From: Sinomonas mesophila
GTDB lineage: Bacteria; Actinomycetota; Actinomycetes; Actinomycetales; Micrococcaceae
DNA: 64,000 bases
Direction: 5' to 3'
Assembly: GCF_001999765.1 (NCBI RefSeq)
Contig: NZ_KV908325.1
Coordinates: 62,256 to 126,255, forward strand
A program made the translations under genes and the position numbers. This document shows, piece after piece, positions 22,508 to 51,373 of the stretch (positions are counted from its first letter, which is position 1; every line of letters begins with the position of its first letter). Below the pieces are notes generated by a model. That model was not told the DNA's origin and searched no databases. It saw nothing but the letters and a program-made list of their open reading frames with translations.

Positions 22508-22911
22508 TGGGCGTTCCCGCGTCAGCTGCGCTCCACGCGCGGCCCGTGCTTCCCGGGGAGGACTTCTCCCGGGTGGCGCTGGCCGCGCCGGCCCTCCCGC
22601 TCCTCGACTCCTTGTGGGGCCGGCACGGAGCGCTCATGTTCCACCAGTCCGGCGGCTGCTGCGACGGGTCCGCGCCGATGTGCTACCCCGCGGGGGAGTT
22701 CATGACGGGCGACGCCGATGTGCTGCTCGGCGTCTTCGACCTCCCCGGGCGGGGCGAGCTGCCGTTCTGGATGTCCCGCGAGCAGTTCGGGTACTGGTCC
22801 CACACGCACCTGACGGTCGACGTCGTCGTGGGCCGCGGGAGCGGGTTCTCCCTCGAGGCGCCGGAGGGGAAGCGCTTCCTGATCAGGAGCGAGATTCTCG
22901 ACATCCCCTAG
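22507..22911 (+). CDS. DUF779 protein
   Basis: This is a small 134-residue protein of the DUF779 family, whose members usually sit beside aldehyde dehydrogenases. The core HGALMFHQSGGCCDGSAPMC near residue 38 carries a Cys-Cys pair and two further Cys or Ser positions that could bind a metal. FDLPGRGELPFWMSREQF and HTHLTVDVVVGRG follow. Its ATG overlaps the alcohol dehydrogenase stop (TGATG), so it is translationally coupled. No biochemical role is established; accessory or maturation functions for the dehydrogenases are only inferred. Confidence 0.85.
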   Translation: MGVPASAALHARPVLPGEDFSRVALAAPALPLLDSLWGRHGALMFHQSGGCCDGSAPMCYPAGEFMTGDADVLLGVFDLPGRGELPFWMSREQFGYWSHTHLTVDVVVGRGSGFSLEAPEGKRFLIRSEILDIP

Positions 22912-22922
22912 CGAATGACGAC

Positions 22923-23027
22923 GCAGGGTCACCTCCCAGCGTTGCGGGGTCACCTCCCAGCGTTGCGGGGTCGTGTCCCAAGGGTGCGGGGTCGTGTCCC
23001 TGCGACGCGGGGTCACATCTCGCACGT
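22923..23027 (+). repeat. forward array of five 21-bp units (GCGGGGTCACCTCCCAGC-type)
   Basis: Five contiguous units of exactly 21 bp start at 22923, 22944, 22965, 22986 and 23007. Each begins GC(A/G)GGGTC followed by (A/G)(C/T)(C/A/G)TC(C/T)C. A degenerate sixth unit may start at 23028. There are no spacers between units, unlike CRISPR. The array follows the DUF779 stop by 11 bp. Between it and the inverted array at 23288 lie 260 bp in which I see no credible gene. Confidence 0.85.
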
Positions 23028-23287
23028 GCAGGTTTCCCCGGTGTTACCGTCTCCGAGGCCGCGACACGCCGCAAAAATGACCGACACGCCGAGGTTTGAA
23101 GGTTAAAGCTGGGGAAATCTGCGCGCCAGTCTTGGCGAGGGTCGCACCCAGCAGACCCATAGCCACACCACCCGGTCACGGCGTAAGCGCCGGGACCGGC
23201 GCGACCCGGCCCGCCGTCGTCGTCCGCTACGCCGAGGAGGGGCCCGCGGCGTCAACGCATCCTGGCTCGAAGGGGTCGCCCCGCCTT

Positions 23288-23371
23288 GGGCGCATAGGGT
23301 GACCCCGGAACGTTGAGAGGTGACCCCGGATCGTTGGGAGGTGACCTCGCAACGTTGGGAGGTGACCCCGC
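23288..23371 (-). repeat. inverted array of four 21-bp units of the same family
   Basis: Read on the minus strand, units begin at 23371, 23350, 23329 and 23308. Each reads (G/C)CG(G/A)GGTCACCTC(C/T)CAACG or close to it; the last is partial. It lies 56 bp from the end of the MHS transporter gene and points toward the forward array. A transcript from either side could fold the two arrays into a long imperfect hairpin. Confidence 0.85.
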
Positions 23372-23427
23372 ATCCATGGCTGGGTGCGGGGCCACCTCTC
23401 CGTCGCGCTGTGTCGCCGGGCCGGACC

Positions 23428-24792
23428 CTACTTCGAGCCGTGGACCTTGTTGCCCAGCTCGTGGATCGGGGTCCGATAGGTCTCGCGGGCCCAGAGGGCG
23501 CCGATGACCGCGAGGACCGTCGAGCCGGCCACGATCCAGGCCGCCGGGCCCCAGTTGGCCGGGACGCCGCCCACGAGGGCGGTACCGAGCAGCGGCGTGA
23601 AGCCGGCGCACAGGATGCCGATCTGCAGGCCGATCGCCATGCCCGAGTAGCGGACGCGGACGTTGAACAGCTCGGCGAACCAGGCCGGGTAGATCGCGTT
23701 GGACAGCGCGTACGTGCCGGCCGTGATGAGCGTGGAGACCACGAAGACGAGCGGGATGTTCGCCGTCGAGATCGCCCAGAAGTACACGAAGATCAGGACG
23801 GTCGAGCCGGTCACGCCGGCGAGGAACACCGGCTTGCGGCCGAACTTGTCCGCGAGCCATGCGCTCAGCGGCTGGGTGGCGATCGCAAGGACGTTGCCGA
23901 GGATGCTGACCCAGAGCATCGTCGAGGCGGGGATGCCCACCGAGACGGCGTAGGCCAGGCCGAAGGACTGCATGAACGTGTTCGTGACGGTCTCGAAGGA
24001 CATAAGCGCGACCTGGAAGAACTGGGCCGGGTGCGTCTTGAGCATGTCCATGAACGGCAGCTTGACGAGGTCGTTGTGCTCGGCCTTCTCCTCGAAGACC
24101 TCGGGCTCCTCGAGCGAGCGGCGCACGATGTACGCGACGACGAGGACGAGCAGCGAGGACCAGAACGGGATGCGCCAGCCCCAGGCGAGGCGGTCGGCCT
24201 CGGCCATGGATGCGACCGGGAGGAACACGAGCGAGGCCATGACGATGCCGGCGGAGATGCCGCTCATCGCGAACGAGGGGAAGAACGCGCGGCGGCCCAC
24301 GGGGGACTCCTCCATGGTCAGCGCCGAAGCGCCGGCAGTCTCCGCGCCGGCGGAGAGGCCCTGCATGAGGCGCAGCAGCACGAGCAGGATCGGGGCGAGG
24401 TAGCCCGCGGTCTGGAAGTCCGGCAGGACCCCGATGAGGAACGTCGCCGCGCCCATGAGCACGAGCGTCATGACGAGCGTGTTCTTGCGCCCGATCCGGT
24501 CGCCGAGGTGGCCGAAGAAGATCGCGCCGAACGGGCGGGCCACGTAGGCCACGCCGAAGGTCGCGAACGAGGCGATCAGGGCGACCGTCGGGTCGCCGGA
24601 GGGGAAGAAGATCTTCGAGAACACGAGCGAGGCGGCGGTCGCGTAGACGAAGAAGTCGTAGTACTCGAGCGCGCCGCCGAGGAAGGCAGCGAGGGCGGCC
24701 TTCTTGGCGCGGCGGAGCCGCCTGGCCTCGTCCGCGGGGGACCGGAAATCGGGATCCAGGCTCGCGAGCTGGGTCTCGGAGGGCTTGGTCAT
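23428..24792 (-). CDS. MFS transporter, metabolite:H+ symporter (MHS) family, probable shikimate/quinate uptake
   Basis: This 454-residue inner-membrane symporter has 12 segments. Family marks are FLGGALEYYDFFVYATAASLVF near residue 37, GHLGDRIGRKNTL near 95, and the YVARPFGA stretch typical of MHS proteins such as ShiA, KgtP and ProP. It is encoded 58 nt after the LacI-type regulator on the same strand. It lies next to the divergent qsuD-qsuB genes, so shikimate or quinate is the likely cargo. Similar transporters in this family also carry dicarboxylates or betaine. Confidence 0.85.
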   Translation of the reverse strand: MTKPSETQLASLDPDFRSPADEARRLRRAKKAALAAFLGGALEYYDFFVYATAASLVFSKIFFPSGDPTVALIASFATFGVAYVARPFGAIFFGHLGDRIGRKNTLVMTLVLMGAATFLIGVLPDFQTAGYLAPILLVLLRLMQGLSAGAETAGASALTMEESPVGRRAFFPSFAMSGISAGIVMASLVFLPVASMAEADRLAWGWRIPFWSSLLVLVVAYIVRRSLEEPEVFEEKAEHNDLVKLPFMDMLKTHPAQFFQVALMSFETVTNTFMQSFGLAYAVSVGIPASTMLWVSILGNVLAIATQPLSAWLADKFGRKPVFLAGVTGSTVLIFVYFWAISTANIPLVFVVSTLITAGTYALSNAIYPAWFAELFNVRVRYSGMAIGLQIGILCAGFTPLLGTALVGGVPANWGPAAWIVAGSTVLAVIGALWARETYRTPIHELGNKVHGSK

Positions 24793-28864: not shown

Positions 28865-29665
28865 ATGGCTGACACCCCCCAATTCCGTGATCGCTCGCGG
28901 GCGGCGCGCAGGCGCGGCCCCGCCTTTGTCGACTCGTCCCCCAGGAGGCGGGCCCGTAGGCGCCTGACCGGTGGGCCGGCCCTGGCCCCCGTCGTGGGCT
29001 CCGGTGCGCTCCTCGCGGTGGCCGTGCTCAGCGGCCCAAGCATCGTGGCCCCCGAGCTCCTCCGCTTCCTCGGGGCCTCGGCCTCGGCCCCCGCGGCTGC
29101 GCCGTCCCCCTCGGCGGACTCTTCGCAGGACGCCGCCCTCCCGCTTCTGTCGGCGCCTGCCGGCCCGGTTTTCACGGGCGGCGCGCCGGCGGCCGACGCC
29201 GCAAACGCGCCGGACGTCGAGGTCGTCGTGCCCGCCGAGCTGCCCGTGCCGCTGATGGCCGACCCTGCCGCGGCCGCGCCTGCCCCCGCGTTCGTGGCCG
29301 TCCCCACGGCGGCCGAGCGCGCCGCGGCTCCCGCGCCCGCCGTCGCGCCCGGGTCCTCCGTCGCGCCCGCGTCGACGTCGACGGCGGAGCCCGCTGCCGC
29401 CGCGGCCGAGCCCGCCCCTGCGACGGCGCCTGCCCCCGCGCCGACCGCCGAGCCCGCCCCTGCGACGGAGCCTGCGCCCGCGCCGACGGCCGAGCCTGCG
29501 CCCGCGCCGACCACGGAGCCCGCTCCCGCGCCGACGACGGAGCCCGCTCCCGCGCCGACGACGGAGCCCGCTCCCGCGCCGACGACGGAGCCCGCTCCCG
29601 CGCCGACGACGGAGCCCGCTCCCGGGAGGAGTGCGTCCGCGCCCGGCCGCGCTGCCCGGTCCTGA
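28865..29665 (+). CDS. membrane-anchored Pro/Ala/Glu-rich repeat protein, paralog A
   Basis: This 266-residue protein has a short basic cytoplasmic start (MADTPQFRDRSRAARRRGP) and one membrane segment around residues 38-58. A long low-complexity extracellular part rich in Ala, Pro, Thr and Glu follows. The last 60 residues are made of TTEPAPAP-type octapeptides encoded by a 24-bp minisatellite. It looks like a wall-spanning stalk. It is paralogous to the next gene in its first 60 residues. Both precede the polysaccharide synthase gene, so a role in presenting or anchoring the polymer at the surface is possible but unproven. No known domain is recognised. Confidence 0.65.
   Translation: MADTPQFRDRSRAARRRGPAFVDSSPRRRARRRLTGGPALAPVVGSGALLAVAVLSGPSIVAPELLRFLGASASAPAAAPSPSADSSQDAALPLLSAPAGPVFTGGAPAADAANAPDVEVVVPAELPVPLMADPAAAAPAPAFVAVPTAAERAAAPAPAVAPGSSVAPASTSTAEPAAAAAEPAPATAPAPAPTAEPAPATEPAPAPTAEPAPAPTTEPAPAPTTEPAPAPTTEPAPAPTTEPAPAPTTEPAPGRSASAPGRAARS
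29513..29632 (+). repeat. 24-bp minisatellite, five copies
   Basis: Units start at 29513, 29537, 29561, 29585 and 29609 (each begins ACGGAGCCCGCTCCCG). They encode TEPAPAPT repeats within paralog A. Because 24 is a multiple of 3, copy changes would alter length but not frame. Confidence 0.85.
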
Positions 29666-48466: not shown

Positions 48467-49321
48467 GTGATTGATCCAAGCATGCCGGACCCCGGCCCGG
48501 GGCCGGTCGACTACGCCCACCCGCCGGTGCCGGTCGCGAGTGACCAGTTCGTCCAGTCGCTCGCGCGCGGGCTCGCCGTCATCCGCGCGTTCGACGCCCA
48601 GCACCCCGAGATGACCCTCTCGGAGGTCGCGGCGCGCACGTCGCTCACGCGGGCGACGGCCCGCCGCTTCCTGCACACACTCGTCGGCCTCGGCTACGTC
48701 CGGACCGACGGGCGGGTCTTCGCGCTCGCGCCGCTCGTGCTCCAGCTCGGCTACGCGTACCTCTCCGGGCAGCGGCTGCCCGAGCTCGCCCAGCCGATCC
48801 TCGAGGAGCTCTCGCATCGCCAGGGAGAGTCGACCTCGCTCGCGATCCTCGACGGCACCGACATCGTCTACCTCACGCGCATCCACACGCGCCGGATCAT
48901 GACCGTGGGGATCTCGCCCGGCACGCGGTTCCCCGCGCATGCGACGTCGATGGGCCGCGTCCTGCTCGCGGGCCTCGGGCCCGCCGAGCTCGAGGACTAC
49001 TTCGCCCGCGCCGACCTGGCTCCCCTCACCCCGCGCACCCTCACATCGCGCGAGGCGATCGAGGCCGAGCTCGCGCGCGTGCGGGAGGCGGGCTACGCCG
49101 TCGTCGACCAGGAGCTCGAGGTGGGGCTGCGCTCGGTCGCCGTGCCGGTCCTGGGCGCGGATGGGCGGACGCTCGCCGCGATCAACGTCGCGCTCTCGGC
49201 CCGGCTCGACGGTGCCGGGCAGGGTGAGGACCGCGACGCCGAGGTGGCCCGCCTCGTGCCCGAGCTCCACGCGGCGGCGGCCTCCATCGCCGAGGCAGCA
49301 AGGGCGGTAGGTGCCCCCTGA
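48467..49321 (+). CDS. pcaR: IclR-family pca regulon regulator
   Basis: This 284-residue regulator of the PcaR/PcaU/PobR subgroup has a winged helix around residues 20-85, beginning QSLARGLAVIRAF, with MTLSEVAARTSLTRATARRFLHTLVGLGYV as recognition region. FALAPLVLQLGYAYLSG and the IclR effector domain follow. This wording is the standard pca-regulon regulator type, which responds to protocatechuate or 3-oxoadipate. The GTG at 48467 follows GGAGG by 4 nt; a TTG overlapping the pcaJ stop and an ATG at 48482 are alternatives. As last gene of the operon it would regulate itself through the triple-repeat site at 41382. Confidence 0.88.
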   Translation: MIDPSMPDPGPGPVDYAHPPVPVASDQFVQSLARGLAVIRAFDAQHPEMTLSEVAARTSLTRATARRFLHTLVGLGYVRTDGRVFALAPLVLQLGYAYLSGQRLPELAQPILEELSHRQGESTSLAILDGTDIVYLTRIHTRRIMTVGISPGTRFPAHATSMGRVLLAGLGPAELEDYFARADLAPLTPRTLTSREAIEAELARVREAGYAVVDQELEVGLRSVAVPVLGADGRTLAAINVALSARLDGAGQGEDRDAEVARLVPELHAAAASIAEAARAVGAP

Positions 49322-49351
49322 GCCTGGCACCCCAACAACCCAACCCTCGTT

Positions 49352-49467
49352 ACGGGGTCACGTCTCAAGGATGCGGGGTCACGTCTCTAAAACGCCTCAA
49401 GTGCGTGATAGAGAGGTGACCCCGCAACGCAGGAAGGTGACCCCGCAACGCAGGAAGGTGACCCCGC
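49352..49467. repeat. facing 21-bp arrays (two forward, three reverse units)
   Basis: Forward units lie at 49352-49372 and 49373-49393 (ACGGGGTCACGTCTC, GCGGGGTCACGTCTC). Reverse units end GGTGACCCCGC at 49425, 49446 and 49467, the last two being identical 21-mers. The family is the same as at 22923-23371. Here the two orientations are only 17 bp apart, so they form one hairpin between the convergent pcaR and ilvD genes. Confidence 0.85.
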
Positions 49468-49489
49468 GTCGTGGGTGGTGGGGTCCGCG

Positions 49490-51373
49490 CTAGGCGACCG
49501 GCTGGGGGGACGTGATCCGGGTGAGGGAGTCGACATCGCGCACGGCGCCCTTGTCGGCCGAGGTGGCCATCGCCGCGTAGGCGCGCAGGGCCGCGGAGAC
49601 CTGACGCTCGCGGTTCGCCGGGTGGTAGCCGGTCGTGGCCTCGAGCCGCTCGCGCCGGGCGTCGAGCTCGGCCTGGTCCACGACGAGCTCCATCGAGCGG
49701 TTCGGGATGTCGATGCGGATGAGGTCGCCGTCCTCGACGAGCGCGATCGTGCCGCCCGAGGCCGCCTCGGGGGAGATGTGCCCGATCGAGAGGCCGGAGG
49801 TGCCGCCCGAGAAGCGCCCGTCGGTGATGAGCGCGCACTTCTTCCCGAGACCGCGGCCCTTGAGGAACGAGGTCGGGTACAGCATCTCCTGCATGCCCGG
49901 CCCGCCCTTCGGACCCTCGTAGCGGATGACGACGACGTCGCCCTCCTTGACCGTCTTGTTCAGGATCTTCTCGACGGCCTCGTCCTGCGACTCGCACACG
50001 ACCGCCGGGCCCTCGAACGTCCAGATCGACTCGTCCACGCCGGCCGTCTTCACGACCGCGCCGTCGACGGCGATGTTGCCGCGCAGCACCGCGAGGCCGC
50101 CGTCCTTCGAGTAGGCGTGCTCGACCGAGCGGATGCAGCCGCCCTCGGCGTCGAGGTCGAGGGAGGTCCACTCGTTGGACTGCGAGAACGCCGTCGAGGA
50201 GCGCTGCCCGCCCGGCGCGGCGTGCCACAGCTGCTGCGCCTCCTCGGTGGCCTTGCCGCCGCGGATGTCCCAGTCGTCGAGCCACGACTCGAGGTCCGGA
50301 GAGTGCACCGAGCGCACGTCGGTGTGGAGGAGGCCGCCGCGGCGCAGCTCGCCCAGGAGGGCGGGGATGCCGCCGGCGCGGTGCACGTCCTCCATGTAGT
50401 ACGTCTTGTCCTTGGCCACGTTCGGGGCGACCTTCGCGAGGCACGGCACGTTGCGGGACTTCGCGTCGATCTCGGCGAGGCCGTACTCGACGCCGGCCTC
50501 CTGGGCCGCCGCGAGCAGGTGCAGGATCGTGTTGGTCGAGCCGCCCATGGCGATGTCGAGGGCCATAGCGTTGTCGAAGGCCTTCGCGGTGGCGATCGAG
50601 CGCGGGAGGACGGAGTCGTCGTCGTGCGCGTAGTAGCGGGTGGCGAGCTCGACGGCGGTCGCCCCCGCGCGCTCGTAGAGCGCCTTGCGCGCGGTGTGGG
50701 TCGCGAGGACGGAGCCGTTGCCCGGGAGGGAGAGGCCGATGGCCTCGGTGAGGCAGTTCATCGAGTTGGCCGTGAACATGCCGGAGCACGAGCCGCACGT
50801 GGGGCACGCGTTCTGCTCGATGAGGTCGATGTCGGCGTCCGAGACGGACTCGTCGACGGCGTCGGCGATCGCGTTGACGAGGTCGAGCGAGCGGATCGAG
50901 CCGTCCGTGAGCGTCACGCGGCCGGCCTCCATGGGGCCGCCGGAGACGAACACGGTCGGGATGTTGAGGCGCATCGCGGCCATGAGCATGCCCGGGGTGA
51001 TCTTGTCGCAGTTGGAGATGCAGACGAGGGCGTCGGCGCAGTGCGCGTTGACCATGTACTCGACCGAGTCGGCGATGAGGTCGCGCGAGGGGAGCGAGTA
51101 GAGCATGCCGCCGTGGCCCATGGCGATGCCGTCGTCGACGGCGATCGTGTTGAACTCGCGCGGGACGGCGCCGGCGGCGAGGATCGCGTCCGAGACGATG
51201 CGGCCCACCGGGGCGAGGTGCGTGTGGCCCGGGACGAACTCGGTGAAGGAGTTGGCGACGGCGATGATCGGCTTCCCGATGTCCGAGTCGGCGACGCCGG
51301 AGGCGCGCATCAGTGCGCGGGCGCCGGCCATGTTGCGGCCATGGGTGACGGTGCGGGAGCGAAGAGCTGGCAT
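49490..51373 (-). CDS. ilvD: dihydroxy-acid dehydratase
   Basis: This 627-residue iron-sulfur enzyme dehydrates 2,3-dihydroxy-isovalerate or -methylvalerate in valine and isoleucine synthesis. Cluster-ligand Cys residues are in [13 protein letters not shown] near residue 109 and [21 protein letters not shown] near 182. The N-terminal [15 protein letters not shown] and [17 protein letters not shown] are highly conserved, as is the C-terminal [20 protein letters not shown]. It stands alone, convergent with the pca operon and divergent from an MmyB-type regulator across 77 bp. Confidence 0.96.

Follow-up and report, generated by a model that had tools for sequence, protein, structure and literature searches.

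Facing arrays of a 21-bp word in Sinomonas mesophila belong to a genus-specific repeat family with dialects, tentatively read as dispensable DNA

The facing arrays of a short word that lie between two convergent genes of Sinomonas mesophila are members of a Sinomonas-specific repeat family with dialects. The arrays sit where insertion is tolerated, that is past stop codons, between convergent genes and in the linkers of proteins; their positions are partly common to species, while the spelling of the word and its period change genome by genome. A search of the literature turned up no description of these repeats. Among the explanations that we weighed, the one we favour, tentatively and with a confidence just short of even, is that the arrays are dispensable, probably selfish interspersed repeats, recognised unit by unit as double-stranded DNA by a putative protein. 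Binding sites that serve the host come second, as a distinctly weaker candidate, and an RNA element comes third and is improbable. The unmatched arms of facing arrays, the lack of a U-tract at their ends, the use of four reading frames inside genes and the lack of a Y1/RAYT match together favour a dispensable, DNA-recognised repeat over an RNA terminator.

In the window (the whole stretch of S. mesophila DNA that was analysed, 64,000 nucleotides), a first-pass annotation had described five forward and four reverse units of an exact 21-bp repeat facing each other between convergent genes, with a recurrence at 49352. The features of the two sites, in window coordinates, are as follows.

22546..22911, forward strand: DUF779 gene, the upstream convergent partner (PF05610, E 1.2e-43)
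22925..23029, forward strand: array of five units at 21-bp spacing, directly 3' of the DUF779 stop codon (position-weight unit scores 30, 33, 16, 16 and 9; maximum 34.6)
23030..23293, no strand: inter-array segment, where a genome search matched the array parts of the query only
23294..23369, reverse strand: array of three strong units (23307-23369) and a weak unit with its core at 23294
23428..24792, reverse strand: opposing MFS transporter gene, 3' end at 23428
48482..49321, forward strand: IclR-type regulator gene preceding the second site
49354..49395, forward strand: array of two units at the second site
49403..49465, reverse strand: array of three units at the second site, 7 bp from the forward array
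49490..51331, reverse strand: opposing dihydroxy-acid dehydratase (IlvD) gene

The facing units are there as described, if with a weak fourth unit on the reverse strand, and they go far beyond chance: the window contains the 12-base core, with at most one mismatch allowed, 17 times where 4.2 would be expected, a number attained by 0 of 100 shuffles, and ten mononucleotide shuffles of the window contained zero arrays. What had been called an exact repeat is exact in its spacing and not in its spelling. The forward cores lie at 22925, 22946, 22967, 22988 and 23009, and units 3 and 4 of that array are spelled GGGGTCGTGTCCC; the reverse cores lie at 23315, 23336 and 23357, with the weak one at 23294, again in 21-bp steps throughout. 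The two sets are some 265-280 bp apart, and the segment between them holds no convincing reading frame confined to it. The second site, with two forward and three reverse units between the convergent IclR and IlvD genes, bears out the recurrence, and the placement between convergent genes is thus correct for both sites. Regular direct repeats are a feature in common with CRISPR, but here the units abut at 21 bp without unique spacers, and the statement that this is not CRISPR stands. Rfam gave zero matches over window positions 20000-51000.

Further observations concern the same neighbourhood. Beyond the reverse array, window 23388-23400 holds a single forward core, GGGGCCACCTCTC, that departs from the word by one mismatch. 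The IclR protein of the window has its nearest named homologues in Sinomonas species, a genus of the Micrococcaceae. An unrelated tandem repeat with units of 18-24 bp is found inside a predicted gene at 29330-29624. In S. atrocyanea DS1018 a gene of 494 amino acids lies between the IclR and ilvD genes (locus L105), at the place where the S. mesophila window (48482-51331) has the facing arrays instead.

The S. mesophila unit consists of a 13-bp core, GGGGTCACCTCCC, and an 8-bp linker. Eleven of the 13 core positions carry more than 1.4 bits, and the linker is looser yet patterned. A loss of the 21-bp spacing elsewhere in the genome, which the first-pass annotation had named as the outcome that would speak against it, is the opposite of what we find: the step from one unit to the next is 21 bp in 202 of 206 instances (the exceptions being 20, twice, 22 and 43), with adjacent units differing at a mean of 3.1 of 21 positions. 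Genomes are cited below by number where this is needed: G061 and G104 are S. atrocyanea DS1015 and DS1018, G150 is S. albida, G175 S. gamaensis and G186 S. humi, and G121, G197 and G199 are Sinomonas sp. R1AF57, ASV486 and ASV322. A comparison of G061 with G104 at orthologous loci gives 556 substitutions and 76 indels (7.3 to 1) for intergenic DNA outside the neighbourhood of arrays, and 267 substitutions and 49 indels, changes of unit number included, for DNA within 30 bp of them. Scaled by the 7.3:1 ratio, the 206 steps should include about 88 changes of spacing, against the 4 seen; the figure is rough, given that units may also convert.

The period classes of the genus (21, 22, 32 and 51-53 bp) are 0 to 1.5 bp off multiples of 10.5. 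The strict 21-bp spacing and the other periods near helical turns, which are few and amount to only about three independent classes, fit recognition of the same DNA face. Tight pairs of arrays in S. mesophila are facing in 17 cases and back to back in 6; a gap of 26 nt is common to 11 of the 17 facing pairs, and a palindromic centre of the type GGGGTCAATG...CATTGACCCC is frequent. In the two S. atrocyanea genomes, whose loci are shared, 13 tight pairs are facing and 6 back to back, with loops of 3, 13-15, 25 or 34-35 nt. Pooled, 30 of 42 tight pairs are facing; a binomial test of this number was set aside because the two S. atrocyanea strains have loci in common.

Genome-wide, a pattern of two 21-bp units with at most three mismatches has 272 matches in S. 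mesophila, and its reversed control has 0. A position-weight search delimited 106 arrays, which form 83 elements when arrays at most 60 bp apart are merged, in 52 loci (366,050 bp of 4.0 Mb) that were picked for holding arrays and include the window. Gene calls came from a codon-usage script, and the background of gene pairs was drawn from these array-bearing neighbourhoods themselves. Between called genes lie 75 of the 83 elements: 39 are in convergent, 28 in co-directional and 8 in divergent context, with 7 intragenic and 1 at a locus edge. The 7 intragenic cases among 82 placed elements, set against some 85% coding DNA, are far from the random placement inside genes that had been proposed as contrary evidence. 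Within the 52 loci an array is held by 32 of 59 convergent gene pairs, 27 of 182 co-directional and 7 of 56 divergent ones (convergent against all others, odds ratio 7.1, p 8.6e-10). When distances up to 150 nt are considered, the stop codon is a median of 13 nt from the nearest array, and at most 30 nt in 74 of 90 cases. The scan for the unit and its orientation at gene ends, which had been suggested as a check, accordingly gives many matches and a bias to gene ends but only a loose bias in orientation, with 56 arrays in the same direction as the nearest gene end and 34 opposite (p 0.026). Both array directions occur in 23 of the 83 elements and one direction only in 60 (arrays up to 60 bp joined). 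The notion of a feature of convergent gene ends only is weakened by the 28 co-directional, 8 divergent and 7 intragenic elements.

A host function could alternatively lie behind the preference for convergent 3' ends (32 of 59 pairs) and behind the excess of facing over back-to-back tight pairs (17 to 6). A chromosomal protein might coat the phased arrays cooperatively to the benefit of the host, perhaps placing a roadblock where genes converge or helping to organise the nucleoid. Cooperative protein binding was the main idea of the first-pass annotation; this is a possibility that we take seriously while holding it to be fairly unlikely. The strict period (202/206), with periods near whole helical turns, the convergent-pair enrichment (odds ratio 7.1) and the presence of arrays at one convergent site, L186, in 11 of 15 genomes by eye are all consistent with it. 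A beneficial site is harder to reconcile with two congeners in which the arrays are absent or at background and with numbers as uneven as 0 to 249 per genome for the 21-bp pattern; nor does it sit well with the 28 of 83 elements that are co-directional, the 7 in genes and an orientation bias as loose as 56 to 34.

In the 7 of 83 S. mesophila elements that are intragenic the frame is open throughout, a count that frame-breaking insertions would escape. Five host genes were confirmed with Pfam (HrpB, RskA, PutA, LigD and TilS), and in 5 of 5 the array lies outside the matched domains: between two of them in HrpB, PutA, LigD and TilS, and before the sole one in RskA. Further array-bearing genes, named by reading of their sequence, encode an ECF-type ABC ATPase, an MFS protein, TreY and a KipA-like protein. 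Counted over S. mesophila, G061 and G104, the 16 in-gene arrays fall into four of the six reading frames, and the constraint is thus not on one peptide. Unit scores have a mean of 26.1 in genes (n=30) versus 28.9 between them (n=306). A comparison of the linkers of six genes (TilS and TreY with a subset of genomes) shows heptapeptide repeats for several clade-A species; clade B mostly has different sequence there. The LigD linker of G084 and G121 (L361, L373) has other heptapeptide repeats, GAPDAEI-like and AEVTPSA-like, perhaps decayed or different arrays.

Period and gene location go together in G162, where 14 of 14 22-bp runs (10 loci) are intergenic and 3 of the 5 runs at 21 bp are intragenic (Fisher p 0.010 when runs are counted, 0.022 when loci are); in S. 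albida, once three duplicate runs were removed (L314/L486, L315/L492), 20 of 20 distinct 22-bp runs and the single 21-bp run are all intergenic. These numbers supersede an earlier count over 30 loci (26 of 26 22-bp matches intergenic, 3 of 4 21-bp matches in genes), in which some arrays had been counted repeatedly. Thus, in G162 and S. albida the frame-breaking period is not seen in genes, and in G162 21-bp runs stay there. Of 30 loci examined from the 32-bp class, 18 are intergenic (several being one array), 10 are without a pattern match and 2 are in-gene cases with a period of 36 that look like chance.

Facing arrays of one word can also be thought of at the level of RNA, as the first-pass annotation had done in noting that the two arrays can pair; they would then fold into one long hairpin at which transcripts arriving from both sides terminate or by which they are stabilised. 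Whole elements do fold strongly against mononucleotide shuffles, with z of -9.2 and -5.7 for the two window sites and -13.5 for locus L209, and this reading would further account for the 74 of 90 arrays within 30 nt of stop codons and for the frequent palindromic centre of S. mesophila tight pairs. Two arrays of one word, however, must pair, and strong folding of the whole element follows from this. The arms of one locus are no better matched with each other than with those of other loci (mismatch 5.21 within and 4.83 across for 17 S. mesophila pairs, permutation p 0.98; 5.88 and 5.87 for 13 S. atrocyanea pairs, p 0.43), and single units, taken from seven dialects, fold no better than shuffles (z -1.4 to +1.3). 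A run of at least five T within 30 nt is found at 0 of 212 array ends, which sets the arrays apart from intrinsic terminators with their T-run after a GC-rich hairpin, and there are zero terminator-like sites at the window site; 60 of 83 elements, moreover, are unidirectional. The case for RNA pairing is therefore weakened by arms that are not preferentially complementary and by ends without T-runs, and we regard an RNA element as improbable. Unmatched arms and unfolded single units favour recognition of the unit in double-stranded form.

Two related candidates were dismissed. Local inverted duplication, or change of the arms that keeps a hairpin, was rejected after the same arm-match permutations. 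Mimicry of the 16S rRNA 3' end had been considered for TCACCTCC, which lies within the S. mesophila core and which we take to be the anti-Shine-Dalgarno end of 16S rRNA; it was dropped, the words of S. atrocyanea (TCATGTCC) and S. albida (TCCCGTCC) being no match.

Across the genus, an array pattern of some dialect is matched in 13 of 15 genomes. The 21-bp pattern has matches in 9 of the 15, with counts of 0 to 249 per genome, and patterns of the other dialects add G150, G200, G199 and G186. The word of S. atrocyanea is GGGGTCATGTCCC TGCGTTGA, at 21 bp; S. albida has GGGGTCCCGTCCC words with a period of 22 bp, G162 a GGGGTCACCTCCCACCCGACGC word also at 22 bp, G200 periods of 22 and 32, and S. 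humi and ASV322 a period of 32 bp with a few units of 51-53 bp. The spacings matched in S. humi (range 23-53) are 32 in 76 of 82 cases, and an alignment by eye suggests that the 32-bp unit resembles the 21-bp unit with 11 bp inserted between GTCACCTCCC and CGTT..GGG. Matches and reversed controls number 82 and 3 in S. humi, 104 and 0 in ASV322, and 51 and 1 in G200; G135 and S. gamaensis are at background, with 0 and 1 and with 1 and 1, respectively. Beyond the genus, the 21-bp pattern with at most one mismatch was matched in 0 of 186 sampled genomes of 31 other genera, a search that covers the 21-bp dialect only. A core-like word is present in 102 of 165 tandem arrays of S. mesophila and 11 of 63 from 20 congener stretches (both sets partly array-selected), in 0 of 24 from 11 Sinomonas IclR loci, and in 4 of 79 and 1 of 26 from loci of other genera. 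A unit-agnostic search for facing arrays through TRF consensus sequences returned 11 pairs in S. mesophila and 0 elsewhere, including 0 in congener stretches where facing arrays are visible by eye; it was too strict and carries no weight as evidence of absence. Several contigs have an array within about 400 bases of their start (C12 and C25 of G186; C4, C10 and C14 of G199), so that assemblies are probably interrupted by long arrays and the counts may be underestimates.

Arrays at orthologous sites are spelled differently. The convergent site L186, inspected by eye across the 15 genomes, has a core-bearing array or inverted repeat in 11, written in several dialects. Nothing of the kind is seen there in G150, G135 or G175, and G006 shows a simple hairpin. 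Fifteen of the 20 G104 loci have both-flank counterparts among the 20 G061 loci and 4 have them in S. mesophila; locus L237, one flank at a time, matches S. mesophila L054. Between S. mesophila and S. atrocyanea, orthologous units show a mean of 6.34 differences over 21 positions, and randomly paired units 6.40 (11 locus pairs); arrays at the same site are thus as unlike as random ones, which argues that units evolve in concert within a genome. Between G061 and G104 orthologous units are somewhat closer than random (4.27 versus 4.77 differences, 15 locus pairs), so that concerted change is not instant. A tree of the linker-flank pieces of four proteins clusters G162 with G104 and G061, yet its intergenic word and period differ from theirs, and dialects can therefore turn over fast. 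Orthologous array-free sites are too divergent for a junction or target-site duplication to be read.

Locus L067 deserves separate mention. The TetR-type gene that lies there between facing arrays (2036-2928) is reversed relative to its flanks in G150, G175, G186, G135 and G200; an inversion between the arrays is possible, and several of the reversed-gene genomes are without arrays there. Among its orthologues (loci L284-L305), that of G199 is not between these flanks and G006 has no match. At L284, L289 and L293, the TetR gene of some genomes apparently has as its stop codon the TGA of an array unit (TGACCCC or TGACTCC).

Mobile elements offer another reading, in which the arrays would be ends or remnants of a transposon or MITE and the inverted arrays transposase sites. 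Some facing pairs do enclose a gene (L057, L059 and L067), the enclosed TetR gene of L067 is the one reversed in five clade-B genomes, and the core GGGGTCAC agrees with GGGGWSAS, in the part of PMC3733652 available to us the motif of repeats that flank some tyrosine transposase genes, an agreement that we treat as a lead only. For the transposase families searched, rve and PF01797, however, no gene flanked by arrays was found: the three rve-domain matches of S. mesophila have no arrays within 1.5 kb, and PF01797 (Y1/RAYT transposase) was found in 0 of 15 Sinomonas genomes, against 5 of 14 control genomes that were positive. The interiors of facing pairs are not common to other array sites of the genome, and the word is absent from viral contigs (exact pattern), PLSDB plasmids and phage records (301-bp query), the BLAST low-complexity filter being on for two of these searches. 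Taken together, this makes transposon or MITE ends the least probable of the readings weighed. Two specific forms were rejected. Ends of IS21-like transposons have multiple tandem sites in inverted order; here the rve matches are without nearby arrays and pair interiors are not common. A RAYT system was set aside for want of PF01797 in the 15 genomes.

The arrays work like several described families of dispersed repeats but differ from each of them in at least one respect. The BOX elements of pneumococcus are modular, with distinct end modules and a variable number of internal modules; the Sinomonas arrays are likewise modular interspersed repeats of variable module number, but consist of units only, with no end modules recognised. 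REP, BIME and REPIN sequences are, in the portions of PMC3733652 and PMC3116915 available to us, mostly extragenic, near 3' ends, often in inverted pairs and in some cases intragenic. So far as those portions go, the arrays have in common with them a genome-wide and mostly extragenic distribution, the bias to 3' ends and convergent genes, inverted pairs, and some copies inside genes, including DNA-repair and RNA-related ones. Unlike them, the arrays are direct and tandem with a fixed period, their spelling and period depend on the species, and the unit is not palindromic (z -1.4 to +1.3, seven dialect units). The GTAG tag occurs in 0 of 7 typed units, and CGTC in 2 of 7 (its complement GACG in 3 of 7) without being conserved. 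The missing Y1/RAYT (0 of 15 genomes) is a further difference, although CGTC REPs are also without one in the part of PMC3733652 available. Rickettsia palindromic elements, elements of about 150 bp in the available part of PMC10969869, have in-frame copies in unrelated genes, as the arrays do in seven S. mesophila genes; by that description they differ from the 21-bp non-palindromic units, which vary in number and lie mostly outside genes. The DNA uptake sequences of Neisseriaceae show species dialects, permissive sites including genes, and inverted pairs (PMC3630211, available in part), and these traits, the pairs at gene ends among them, recur in Sinomonas. By analogy, the arrays might be uptake signals for natural transformation, with species dialects, permissive sites and frequent inverted pairs. 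Fixed-period tandem arrays fall outside the Neisseriaceae description, as far as that partial source goes, and two congeners are at background; we consider uptake signals very improbable.

For the preferred reading of dispensable, DNA-recognised repeats we envisage the following mechanism. A putative sequence-specific protein would bind unit after unit along a single face of the helix, arrays would grow by duplication of whole units, and copies would spread into permissive DNA. Copies at different loci might then be homogenised, either via ectopic recombination or by a putative enzyme, and with such homogenisation each genome would drift to its own dialect. A bolder version, possible in our eyes but rather doubtful, is an analogue of satellite-DNA drive, in which arrays of helically phased sites (21/22, 32 and 51-53 bp) co-evolve with a fast-changing putative DNA-binding protein; genome-wide replacement of dialect and period could then occur between close relatives, as in G162 versus S. 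atrocyanea, with in-gene copies held to periods that keep the frame.

The REP families described in bacteria are palindromes, many of them linked to transposases. The Sinomonas word, in contrast, is non-palindromic, keeps a constant pitch in about a hundred arrays, stands in frame in protein linkers and shifts its spelling genome-wide between related species. With congeners that look array-free at hand as controls, the homogenisation of dispersed bacterial repeats becomes testable in this system, and so does the question of whether a DNA-binding protein drives the change of dialect.
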